Shown here: positions 3,674 to 63,495 of the stretch, piece by piece
How the letters are laid out: each line of letters opens with the position of its first letter
Numbering within the stretch: position 1 is the first letter of the stretch
Assembly (NCBI RefSeq): GCF_000282215.1
Contig: NZ_AKJS01000107.1
Span: forward strand, 1-64,000
Length of the DNA: 64,000 nucleotides
Source of the DNA: Pseudomonas sp. GM21
Lineage (GTDB): Bacteria; Pseudomonadota; Gammaproteobacteria; Pseudomonadales; Pseudomonadaceae
Direction: 5' to 3'
Program-made: the position numbers and the translations under genes
The notes under the pieces: generated by a model
Database searches by the model: none
The model's input: only the letters and a program-made list of their open reading frames with translations
What the model was told of the DNA's origin: nothing

Positions 3674-3704
3674 AAAAACGGCGCCCGTGAGGCGCCGTTT
3701 TTTT
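3674..3704. terminator. Bidirectional rho-independent terminator, mscL / fpr
   Basis: A perfect 12-base stem (AAAAACGGCGCC at 3674-3685 with GGCGCCGTTTTT at 3691-3702) around the loop CGTGA, with A and T tracts on both sides. It can stop transcription from either direction and sits exactly between the two convergent genes. Confidence 0.93.
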
Positions 3705-4479
3705 ACCAAAAGTTTTCCACAGCCACCTGGCCTGGTCGTCTGCTGAGGCTCAGGTGCATGTCACGCTGTTTGAGCAGCTTGCGCGTGTCATCGATCATCT
3801 GCGGGTTACCGCAGAGCATGACCCGCGAGTGCTCGGGGGTCAGCGCCACGCCTGCTGCCCGCTCCAGTTCGCCATTTTCGATCAGCGTAGTGATCCGCCC
3901 GCTCAGGGCGCCGGGGTGTTGTTCGCGAGTGACGGTGGCGATGAACTGCAATTTGTGGGCGTTTTCGGCCAGATAGTCGCGCTGCCCCAACTCGGCGATC
4001 AACGCCTGATACGCCAGCTCCCGGGCTTCGCGCACGCTGTAGACGAGGATAATGCGTTCGAACCTTTCCCAGACCTCAAAGTCTTGCAGGATAGACAGAA
4101 ACGGGGCAATGCCGGTACCTGTGGATAACAGCCACAGATCACGCCCATCGACAAAACGATCAGGGGTCAAATAGCCAAAGGCCTGGCGGTCGACCAGCAA
4201 CGTATCGCCGGCCTCCAGGCGACTCAGCTCGCTGGTGAACTCCCCGCCCGGCACGACAATGGAGAAGAACTCGAGAAATTCGTCATGGGGTGCCGAAACC
4301 ATGGAATAAGCACGCCAGACTGTACTGCCATCGGCCTTGGTAACGCCTAATCGGGCGAACTGCCCTGCCCTGAAACGAAAACCCGAATCCCGGGTAGCCC
4401 GCAAGGTAAACAGGTTCGGGGTCAACGGCTGGACGTCGAGCAAGGTTTGGCGGGTGAACTTATCGGCGCTGGCGGTCAT
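3703..4479 (-). CDS. fpr: Ferredoxin--NADP(+) reductase
   Basis: A 258-residue FAD enzyme of the bacterial Fpr family that moves electrons between NADPH and ferredoxin or flavodoxin. Seen are the FAD-binding RAYSMVSAP (RxYS), the NADP-binding GTGIAPFLS, and a C-terminal VENFW ending in the family's aromatic residue. I chose the ATG at 4479 because GGAGCG lies just before it; an ATG at 4491 is in frame. It is divergent from the LuxR gene. Confidence 0.93.
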   Translation of the reverse strand: MTASADKFTRQTLLDVQPLTPNLFTLRATRDSGFRFRAGQFARLGVTKADGSTVWRAYSMVSAPHDEFLEFFSIVVPGGEFTSELSRLEAGDTLLVDRQAFGYLTPDRFVDGRDLWLLSTGTGIAPFLSILQDFEVWERFERIILVYSVREARELAYQALIAELGQRDYLAENAHKLQFIATVTREQHPGALSGRITTLIENGELERAAGVALTPEHSRVMLCGNPQMIDDTRKLLKQRDMHLSLSRRPGQVAVENFW

Positions 4480-4661
4480 GGGTCGCTCCATTGGACTGAC
4501 CTGGCCAGTGTCGCGCAAAGCAGACGATGTAAACACCGGTGATTTGTAGTGTCTTTGAAAAGGAGATCTCTTGTTATTGATATAGCCTGACTATATGTTG
4601 CTGAGGCATACACCGACTCGTACAAAAAACGACACATTGAATGATGCACGCCATGTGACTT

Positions 4662-4682
4662 AGTTGTACTAGCTGTACAACT
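4662..4682. promoter_or_regulatory. Perfect palindrome in the fpr-ppoR intergenic region
   Basis: Arms AGTTGTAC (4662-4669) and GTACAACT (4675-4682) are exact reverse complements around a 5-base centre. Size and symmetry suit a dimeric regulator. It lies 142 bases before the LuxR start and 183 bases before fpr, in an AT-rich divergent promoter region. The regulator is not shown by the sequence; PpoR itself is one candidate. Confidence 0.55.
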
Positions 4683-4740
4683 TCTAAGAACCGAACATAC
4701 AGCTCAGAAAATTTTCAAGAACAAAATAATTGCAGCATAT

Positions 4741-4760
4741 GTGTAGGATTGCTCCTACAC
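4741..4760. promoter_or_regulatory. 20-bp palindrome resembling a lux box before ppoR
   Basis: Arms GTGTAGGA (4741-4748) and TCCTACAC (4753-4760) are exact reverse complements around TTGC, 20 bases in all, the length of a classical lux box. It ends 63 bases before the LuxR start codon. The resemblance is partial (TGTAGGA on the left side), so binding by PpoR is an inference. Confidence 0.5.
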
Positions 4761-4823
4761 TCGGCACGTTCTGGATCACGGATCCAATTTACACCCCAAA
4801 GATATCCGCATGGAGCTGCTGCA

Positions 4824-5534
4824 ATGGAGATGTGGAAGGAATCACAGTTAAGACAGATATCCGATGCCAAGGAAATAAATTCTGCGTATGACGTTTCACT
4901 CAATCTCGTTCAGAGTCTTGGCTTCACCTTCTGTGCTTTTTCAATTACATCCCCCGCAGAAGCGCATCATCTCGACACAGTAAGTTTTAATAACTACCCG
5001 CTCGAATGGAATACGAAATATCACCACGACCATTTCGGTGACATAGATCCAATACGGAAACATTGCAATCAATCAGAACTGCCGATTCTTTGGGAGGATG
5101 AGCTTTTCTCAAAGGCGCCTCAGCTCCGGCAGGCGCAAAAAACACTAGGCTTGCAGTATGGCTGGTCACAATCGATTCATGACGGCAACGGTCTTCGCAG
5201 CATGTTTAGCCTGGCCAGAAGCAACAACCCGATCACTGCCTATGAATTGTATGAAAATCTGGGTTACGCCATTTTCATCAACCACCAATTGCATCGGCAC
5301 GTAGCGCAAAAACTGCGTCATTGCCGGCCGGGCGCATGCGTCCCTCATTTGTCGACACGTGAAATCGAAATTCTCAGATTGTCGGCCGACGGCAAGACGG
5401 CGTATGAATGCTCCAGAATTCTCAGCATCAGTGAACGTACCATCAATTTCCACGTGCACAGTGCAATCCAGAAATTTGGCGTGAACAACAAGATTGCAGC
5501 GGTGATAAAGGCTGTGAGGACGGGGGCCATCTGA
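4824..5534 (+). CDS. ppoR: Orphan LuxR-type regulator (PpoR family)
   Basis: A 236-residue two-domain regulator. The N-terminal acyl-homoserine-lactone domain keeps the six conserved positions as W62, Y66, D75, P76, W90 and G113. The C-terminal helix-turn-helix begins LSTREIEIL and runs through KTAYECSRILSISERTINFH. No luxI synthase gene is nearby, so this is a LuxR solo. Its position after fpr and before rlmG matches my memory of ppoR in P. putida. The ATG at 4824 has a GGAG nine bases upstream; the longer frame to 4749 would run through the palindrome. Confidence 0.83.
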   Translation: MEMWKESQLRQISDAKEINSAYDVSLNLVQSLGFTFCAFSITSPAEAHHLDTVSFNNYPLEWNTKYHHDHFGDIDPIRKHCNQSELPILWEDELFSKAPQLRQAQKTLGLQYGWSQSIHDGNGLRSMFSLARSNNPITAYELYENLGYAIFINHQLHRHVAQKLRHCRPGACVPHLSTREIEILRLSADGKTAYECSRILSISERTINFHVHSAIQKFGVNNKIAAVIKAVRTGAI

Positions 5535-5711: not shown

Positions 5712-6836
5712 ATGCCCCTGCTCGAAACGCCCTTCGCCCAACTCGATCTGATCCGTCAACCAGAACAGCAGAATGAACCGCTGCAAGCTTTCGATGCAGC
5801 CGACGAATACCTGCTCAACCATCTCGCCGAACAACATCCTTCGGCCGAAACTCGGGTACTGGTGCTGAACGATAGTTTTGGCGCATTGGCCGCCAGCCTC
5901 GCGGGCAAGGTCCGGGTGATCAGCAGTGGCGACTCGTTTCTGGCGTTTCAGGGGCTGGAAAAAAATCTGATCCGTAACAACCAGGCGTTTGACGCCGTAC
6001 CGAGCGTGCCCGCCAGCGAAGCGTTCAACGGCCCGTTTGACCGGGTATTGATCCGGGTGCCGAAAACCCTGGCGCTGCTGGAAGAACAGCTTATTCGCCT
6101 GCAAGGCCAGTTGGCGCCGGGCGCACAGGTGATTGCTGCGGCGATGATCAAGCATCTGCCACGTGCTGCCGGTGATCTGCTTGAACGCTACATCGGCCCG
6201 GTGCAAGCCTCTTTGGCGGTGAAAAAGGCCCGGCTATTGATCGCCACCCCAGAAACAAAAGCCCCTGTCGTGTCCCCCTACCCTTCGCGCTATCAACTCG
6301 ATGAACCGGCCATTGAACTGCTGAACCACGCCAATGTGTTTTGCCGCGAAGGACTGGACATCGGCACCCGGGCCTTTCTGCCACACCTGCCAAAGAACCT
6401 CGGCACTGCGCGAGTCGCGGACCTCGGTTGCGGTAACGGCGTGCTGGCCATCGCCAGTGCGCTGCAAAACCCTCAGGCGCAGTACACGCTGGTGGACGAG
6501 TCGTTCATGGCGGTGCAATCGGCCACTGAAAACTGGCGCGCGGCGCTCGGTGACAGAGAAGTCATTGTGCGGGCCGGCGATGGCCTCGCGGGGCAGGAAT
6601 CTCAATCCCTGGACGTGGTGCTGTGCAATCCGCCGTTCCATCAGCAACAAGTCGTCGGCGACTTCCTCGCCTGGCGCATGTTCCAGCAGGCCCGAGAGGC
6701 GCTGGTGGTGGGCGGTGCGCTGTATATCGTCGGCAACCGTCACTTGGGTTACCACAGCAAGCTTGCACGACTGTTCCGTGGTGTAGAGCAAGTGGCCGCC
6801 ACGCCAAAATTCGTGATTCTCAAAGCCCGCAAATAA
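5712..6836 (+). CDS. rlmG: 23S rRNA (guanine-N2)-methyltransferase RlmG
   Basis: A 374-residue enzyme with an N-terminal degenerate methyltransferase-like half and a catalytic C-terminal half. The latter shows the SAM motif VADLGCGNGVLAIA and the base-amino methylation motif VLCNPPFHQ (NPPF). This layout is shared by RlmG (G1835) and RsmC (G1207); length and neighbourhood favour RlmG. The open frame runs further upstream to 5604, but MPLLETPF is the expected beginning. Confidence 0.87.
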   Translation: MPLLETPFAQLDLIRQPEQQNEPLQAFDAADEYLLNHLAEQHPSAETRVLVLNDSFGALAASLAGKVRVISSGDSFLAFQGLEKNLIRNNQAFDAVPSVPASEAFNGPFDRVLIRVPKTLALLEEQLIRLQGQLAPGAQVIAAAMIKHLPRAAGDLLERYIGPVQASLAVKKARLLIATPETKAPVVSPYPSRYQLDEPAIELLNHANVFCREGLDIGTRAFLPHLPKNLGTARVADLGCGNGVLAIASALQNPQAQYTLVDESFMAVQSATENWRAALGDREVIVRAGDGLAGQESQSLDVVLCNPPFHQQQVVGDFLAWRMFQQAREALVVGGALYIVGNRHLGYHSKLARLFRGVEQVAATPKFVILKARK

Positions 6837-40720: not shown

Positions 40721-40744
40721 TGTGGGAGCTGGCTTGCTCCCACA
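40721..40744. repeat. Single REP hairpin after the EEP gene
   Basis: TGTGGGAG (40721-40728) with CTCCCACA (40737-40744). It sits between convergent genes and can act as a terminator. Confidence 0.75.
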
Positions 40745-49322: not shown

Positions 49323-49367
49323 CGGATCCAATGTGGGAGCGAGCCTGCTCGCTCCCACAGGGATCCG
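49323..49367. repeat. REP hairpin with an extra outer stem
   Basis: TGTGGGAGCGAG (49332-49343) pairs with CTCGCTCCCACA (49348-49359) over a CCTG loop. CGGATCC (49323-49329) and GGATCCG (49361-49367) extend the stem. It lies between amn and the dehydrogenase gene. Confidence 0.8.
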
Positions 49368-63382: not shown

Positions 63383-63495
63383 GATCGTTCCCACGCTCTG
63401 CGTGGGAATGCATCCCGTGACGCTCTGCGTCACAGCATCAGAAGCGGACGCAGAGCGTCCATGGCGGCATTCCCACGCGGAGCGTGGGAACGATC
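63383..63495. repeat. Nested inverted repeat, second family
   Basis: GATCGTTCCCACGCTCTGCG begins at 63383 and its complement ends at 63495. Each arm is itself a hairpin (CCCACGCTCTGCGTGGG), and two more hairpins (GTGACGCTCTGCGTCAC; GGACGCAGAGCGTCC) lie inside. It is unrelated to the GTGGGAGC repeats. Confidence 0.85.

Follow-up and report, generated by a model that had tools for sequence, protein, structure and literature searches.

The typical high-affinity site of the Bordetella response regulator BvgA consists of inverted TTTCCTA heptads (PMC4314077), which in head-to-head arrangement read TAGGA-N4-TCCTA. A similar core, TARGA-N4-TCCTA, is found in the RcsAB box of E. coli, TAAGAATATTCCTA (PMC12388358), and in P. 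aeruginosa the response regulators RocA1, RocA2 and RocA3, which are associated with unorthodox kinases, have highly similar DNA motifs (PMC12051241); the term 'LuxR' does not occur in the text of the latter paper. The 20-bp lux box ACCTGTAGGATCGTACAGGT carries TGTAGGA as one of its halves, and a lux box located between -35 and -10 yielded a promoter that was repressible by LuxR (PMC4444344).

LuxR solos of subgroup A, which include PpoR, are encoded by luxR genes flanked by ferredoxin-NADP reductase and rRNA methyltransferase genes, without luxI (PMC8546723). Expression of ppoR is minimal at low cell density and rises sharply on entry into log phase, a growth-phase regulation that was ascribed in 2009 to a yet unidentified regulator, PpoR, RpoS, PsrA and GacA being without effect (PMC2703642). 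In an acyl-homoserine lactone (AHL) synthase mutant of P. putida WCS358, ppoR expression was higher and was not restored by added AHLs (PMC2703642).

Gene setting and the two palindromes

The stretch analyzed here (the window) comprises 64,000 nucleotides of Pseudomonas sp. GM21 and contains a locus of this type, with the following features:

3703-4479, minus strand: fpr, the divergent neighbor, ferredoxin-NADP reductase-like by Pfam (best NCBIfam model ferredoxin--NADP(+) reductase, below cut-off)
4662-4682, no strand: palindrome 1, AGTTGTAC-N5-GTACAACT, exact, 21 bp, probably incidental or lineage-specific
4725-4731, plus strand: A/T tract upstream of the promoter, a putative UP-like element located by column conservation
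4741-4760, no strand: palindrome 2, GTGTAGGA-N4-TCCTACAC, perfect, 20 bp
4742-4759, no strand: core dyad of palindrome 2, TGTAGGA-N4-TCCTACA, the proposed BvgA/EvgA/Roc-type operator
4756-4761, plus strand: predicted -10 of the ppoR promoter, TACACT, overlapping the right arm of palindrome 2
4764-4823, plus strand: conserved ppoR leader, containing GGATCCAA at 4780-4787
4824-5534, plus strand: ppoR-like LuxR solo gene, 236 aa, Autoind_bind and GerE HTH by Pfam
5712-6836, plus strand: downstream neighbor, RlmG-like rRNA methyltransferase gene (Pfam MTS; NCBIfam RlmG, below cut-off)

The fpr-like and RlmG-like genes that flank the luxR gene give it the setting of a PpoR-type LuxR solo of subgroup A. 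A profile search of the genome found Autoind_bind in the product of this gene alone, and a genome search for the LuxI family gave no matches, the control genomes being equally silent, so that luxI is at most provisionally absent. In an alignment to optimized RhlR and QscR the product retains a tryptophan, a tyrosine, an Asp-Pro pair and a second tryptophan, which we take to belong to the ligand pocket. A ppoR-like gene is present in 100 of the 149 Pseudomonas genomes searched (E up to 1e-25).

As originally predicted, both palindromes are exact, are separated by 58 bases and are sited between fpr on the minus strand and the LuxR-type gene on the plus strand. A search of the interval 4537-4823 (287 bp) for perfect palindromes (arms of 8 bp, gap 0-8) returned these two distinct ones; repeated on 2000 dinucleotide shuffles of the interval, it returned one palindrome in 65 shuffles and two in none. 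A single such palindrome would therefore arise about 3% of the time, whereas a pair is beyond chance expectation.

The two palindromes differ in kind. The suggestion that they serve two regulators is not supported, because palindrome 1 falls under the refuting condition set with the original prediction, its arms not being conserved among relatives: a search of 56 related loci, covering up to 400 bp upstream, gave no instance of TGTAC-N4-6-GTACA, and in the nearest relative palindrome 1 is altered by several changes across its length. Within its own genome it occurs at one place. That it represents a separate operator, for instance for the fpr side, would be in keeping with its exact 21 bp, with the rarity of one such palindrome in the interval and with the best matches to TTGTAC-N5-GTACAA across the genus, which reach 10/12 in three of 80 loci (3.8%) against 0.7% of single-base shuffles. 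The remaining loci all score lower and none exceeds 10/12, however, and the longer pattern GTTGTAC-N5-GTACAAC is present in eight of 149 genomes, its own included, against three of 149 for the reversed control. A separate operator is accordingly quite unlikely, and palindrome 1 is probably incidental or lineage-specific and outside the explanation proposed below for palindrome 2.

Palindrome 2 in the ppoR promoter

Palindrome 2 was followed in two sets of loci, which overlap and so are not independent (L002 of the first and L087 of the second, for example, are on contigs of the same length). The close set (n = 52) consists of the window and loci L002-L052, all from Pseudomonas, with the non-Pseudomonas homologues L053-L057 excluded; the genus set consists of 80 stretches from 79 genomes, out of 114 listed ppoR-like places, and in 79 of these stretches a divergent fpr is located upstream. 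Comparison of genomes that share this gene order, the check that accompanied the original prediction, supports the view that palindrome 2 is a conserved element of the ppoR promoter with the character of an operator. The core sequence TCCTACACT is matched at 9/9 positions in 44 loci of the close set and at 8/9 in the other eight; in the genus set the match is 9/9 in 59 loci, 8/9 in 16, 7/9 in three and 6/9 in two (single-base shuffles reach a score of 9 in 0.1% and of 8 in 1.4%). The latter two, L159 and L163, were excluded from the column counts, which refer to 78 of the 80 genus loci.

The -10-like element has C or A at one position (TACACT/TACAAT), a variation that is expected for a -10 element, and TACACT, at its presumptive position, is predicted to be the almost invariant -10 of ppoR. 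Approximately 25 bases upstream of the core, the A/T tract occupies columns -28 to -24 relative to TCCTACACT with 0.98-1.41 bits in the 78 genus loci. Visual inspection revealed no hexamer resembling a -35 at the appropriate spacing. The ppoR promoters of the group that includes L158 and L166 read GTAGGTCTTTTCCTACAATC; PpoR of P. putida KT2440 resembles this group, as judged from a hand translation of the primers in PMC2703642.

Conservation of the left arm is more modest, at 0.44-1.01 bits per column in the same 78 loci, with 0.14-0.29 bits in the spacer of 4 bases between the arms. At this offset, GTAGGA is matched in at least 5/6 positions in 35 of the 78 loci, whereas each of 24 other offsets tested gave no such locus; the match is exact in 23 of the 52 close loci. 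For the 7-mer TGTAGGA, all seven positions are present in six of the 78 loci, six in 18, five in 19, four in 19, and three or fewer in 16. When gaps of 0-12 were scanned at ppoR, gap 4 yielded dyads scoring at least 11/14 in 62 of 80 loci, as against five of 80 for the next best gap; since the right arm is nearly fixed at ppoR, this threshold demands only about 4/7 on the left. The left arm is thus enriched at exactly one spacing, but roughly half of the relatives do not preserve it well. In the window, the inverted repeat TAGGA-N4-TCCTA of BvgA/EvgA/Roc-type operators is exact, and its gap of 4 is the one preferred over 12 other gaps.

These counts could also be accommodated without an operator, by regarding TCCTACACT as a conserved -10 region, possibly that of a specialized sigma factor, and the left arm as a promoter feature or the product of chance. 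Conservation is much stronger in the right arm, as the -10 alone would explain, and the low number of loci (35 of 78) with a left arm of at least 5/6 weighs against an operator, as does the nearest relative, which has no left arm and in which the regulator (see below) is 100% identical and ppoR 86% identical. Enrichment of the left arm at a single offset and gap speaks against the promoter-only interpretation, as does the strong conservation of both arms at a second promoter described below, and this interpretation appears rather unlikely.

Between the promoter and the start of ppoR, GGATCCAA is present in 47 of the 52 leaders of the close set, surrounded by GTGCC...GGCAC, by eye a possible short stem. 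RNAalifold applied to the 52-sequence alignment gave four pairs, for none of which both partners had changed, and hence no supported fold; an arm-swap test of the leader gave 2 of 500 permutations, a weak signal confounded by relatedness. The leaders of 21 of the loci L116-L145, a ppoR group with products starting NWRNTRLPKL or similar, are without GGATCCAA, and by eye many of them show TTGGG...AGGACGTA...CCCAA, which may form a hairpin that includes a GGA motif.

The same dyad at a response-regulator gene

A search of the genome of the window for the dyad, allowing at most one mismatch in the 14 specified bases, returned two places, ppoR and C17:68418 (reversed-pattern control, one place). 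A REP repeat, first suspected from the TGTAGGA/TCCTACA arms, was rejected, since the 18-bp dyad occurs in the 6.6 Mb once exactly and once with a single mismatch. The dyad at C17:68418 begins 106 bp before a response-regulator gene (G000:C17:68524-69147), which is located between a dGTPase gene and a gene for a 1214-aa hybrid kinase. The regulator (208 aa) consists of Response_reg and GerE domains, and the BvgS-like kinase contains SBP_bac_3 (two stretches), PAS, HisKA, HATPase_c, receiver and Hpt domains. The best NCBIfam model for the kinase is EvgS, below cut-off; for the regulator it is EvgA, with 168 bits against 58 bits for RcsB, both below cut-off, a difference from the RcsAB system, the box core of which resembles the dyad. 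The dgt-regulator-kinase gene order is similar to that of roc2 / PA3043-PA3045.

A match to the regulator (E up to 1e-50) was obtained in 126 of 149 genomes, a count that includes paralogues, and the loci of 60 of these 126 genomes were compared. At positions -115 to -98 of the regulator promoter, the dyad scores at least 10/14 in 59 of the 60 genomes, so that the regulator gene carries the site at its own promoter in nearly all of them; the exception, L240, scores 6, and single-base shuffles reach 10 at these positions in 1.0%. The consensus is TGTAGGA-N4-TCCTATATT, with approximately 1.1-2.0 bits per column in both arms, and a -10-like TATATT coincides in part with the right arm. Dyads scoring at least 11/14 were found at gap 4 in 55 of the 60 loci, the next best being gap 9 with 16. 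Over 400 bp, the best match lies outside -115 to -98 in four of the 60 loci (L240, L260, L276 and L277), three of which also match at 10 or 11 within that interval.

Palindrome 2 is thus a conserved dyad, operator-like in character, that the ppoR promoter shares with a gene for a BvgA/EvgA/Roc-type regulator. Its core is identical to the head-to-head BvgA heptads, and the BvgAS-like partner proteins and the site at the regulator's own promoter are further likenesses to the BvgA system. BvgA sites are usually positioned upstream, whereas the Pseudomonas dyad overlaps the -10, and its conservation extends to the outer TG/CA bases.

A paralogous BvgA-type regulator gene, approximately 67% identical, is present at C23:21774 of the same genome and in nine others (L280-L289), and degenerate TGTARGA-like half-sites scoring 9-11/14 are located at about -136 to -112 of it in the 10 genomes; for scale, a score of at least 10 is reached by 12.8% of 400-bp single-base shuffles. 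With these weaker similar sites upstream, the paralogue is a second candidate for the binding protein.

In nine of the 60 genomes with a fetched regulator locus, no ppoR-like gene was matched at 1e-25, and all nine keep the dyad with at least 10/14 (G126, 13; G092, 10; G066, 13; G094, 13; G018, 13; G020, 13; G026, 13; G050, 13; G061, 11), eight of them with at least 11. Regulator identity is 68% in G061 and 80-84% in the others. Since these genomes keep the dyad, PpoR is not needed to maintain it at the regulator promoter there.

This bears on the original proposal that palindrome 2 may be a lux box or PpoR site, in which case it would be an autoregulatory lux-type site of PpoR itself. Besides the location of the dyad at ppoR and the GerE HTH of PpoR, such a role would fit the altered ppoR expression of the WCS358 AHL-synthase mutant noted above, and palindrome 2 does share with the lux box ACCTGTAGGATCGTACAGGT its 20-bp length and its TGTAGGA half (PMC4444344). 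TGTA and TACA are, however, separated by 10 bp in the dyad, 4 bp more than the 6 bp of that lux box. The lux box consensus itself, NNCT-N12-AGNN, is absent, positions 3-4 of the 20-mer being GT and positions 17-18 AC. With the dyad preceding the response-regulator gene in nine of the nine compared genomes without a ppoR-like match, and with ppoR reported as not autoregulated in P. putida (PMC2703642), a lux box or PpoR site must be considered unlikely.

Another candidate sharing part of the sequence was a GacA site of the TGTAAG-N6-CTTACA type. Palindrome 2 of the window matches 10 of the 12 specified arm bases of the rsmY upstream activating sequence TGTAAGCATTCTCTTACA by hand count (PMC4353343). 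At the left-arm position that discriminates between the two types of site, the genus loci prefer G over A (G in 56 and A in 19 of 78), and ppoR expression was unchanged in a gacA mutant of P. putida WCS358 (PMC2703642). The GacA box was set aside on these grounds as very improbable, its likeness to the dyad notwithstanding. GacA has the same kind of HTH.

Across the 149 genomes, 100 carry both a ppoR-like gene and the regulator or its paralogue, 26 the regulator only and 23 neither, and none carries a ppoR-like gene alone. The chance of this nesting of ppoR-like genes within regulator-bearing genomes is 9e-14, a value that ignores phylogeny and therefore overstates the case; the nesting may reflect clade structure. 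The best regulator match has an identity of 67% in ppoR-bearing G034 and of 70% in G080.

Proposed control of ppoR and further occurrences of the dyad

On balance it seems likely that palindrome 2 is the operator of a NarL/FixJ-family response regulator of the BvgA/EvgA/Roc type that controls both ppoR and itself, probably as a repressor. The most likely binder would be the regulator adjoining the BvgS-like hybrid kinase, a dimer of which would bind TGTAGGA-N4-TCCTACA with its right half-site overlapping the ppoR -10. With the same dyad over the -10-like TATATT of its own promoter, the regulator would control itself and ppoR jointly, blocking RNA polymerase until repression is relieved or altered by the signal of the kinase. 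Repression is the likeliest effect because the site covers the -10; operators inside the core promoter commonly repress, and the lux box between -35 and -10 mentioned above provides a parallel. Negative control of ppoR together with negative autoregulation of the regulator is therefore favored by analogy; confidence in the site is moderate, that in the sign of the effect lower.

The BvgA/EvgA/Roc-type regulator is also a candidate for the ppoR regulator left unidentified in 2009. The higher ppoR expression in the AHL-synthase mutant of WCS358 is unexplained by control through a response regulator.

Sites were also sought beyond the two promoters. TARGA-N4-TCCTACAMTC matched in 27 of 149 genomes, against one of 149 for the reversed control; of its 28 places, 14 are at ppoR, seven before nhaA and seven scattered. 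The seven before nhaA, each in a different genome (L060, L062, L068, L069, L074, L082 and L084, at about 1501-1519), read TAGGA-N4-TCCTACACTC and lie beside a cysteine synthase/desulfhydrase-like gene, the gene names having been tested in L069 only. TGTARGA-N4-TCYTACA is present in 36 of 149 genomes (control, one of 149); 30 loci were fetched, of which nine were set aside as ppoR, and in six of the other 21 TGTAGGA-N4-TCCTACA precedes a tssB-like gene of type VI secretion, as was tested and confirmed for two (L186 and L199). These six (L175, L181, L186, L187, L188 and L199) carry the dyad at about 1501-1518, followed by TATA in five (not L187). A mutant of P. plecoglossicida in the ppoR-like gene pplR had lower tagF (PMC11543582), an effect that may or may not be linked to the tssB dyads.

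As a tentative extension, AHL sensing may be gated throughout the genus by a BvgAS/Roc-type phosphorelay, the regulator of which would occupy the -10 region of its own gene and of ppoR and in some genomes would also be positioned before a type VI secretion operon; we hold such a circuit to be possible and rather less than probable. If true, a quorum-signal receptor would be linked to a BvgAS-like two-component system, and eavesdropping on the signals of neighbors would be switched by an unrelated periplasmic signal. With ppoR widespread in Pseudomonas, one conserved site and one regulator family can now be named as candidates for its control. The site appears from its sequence to be of a known kind, and the putative regulatory link to ppoR would be the new part; no description of a link between ppoR and a BvgAS-like system was found among the open-licence papers listed or read.

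Elsewhere in the window, two palindromes with the same arms, TTCCCACG-N5-CGTGGGAA, are located at 63388-63408 and 63470-63490, 82 bases apart, and palindromes of the GTGGGAGC type, which we take to resemble Pseudomonas REP elements, are found at 40721-40744 and 49333-49358.
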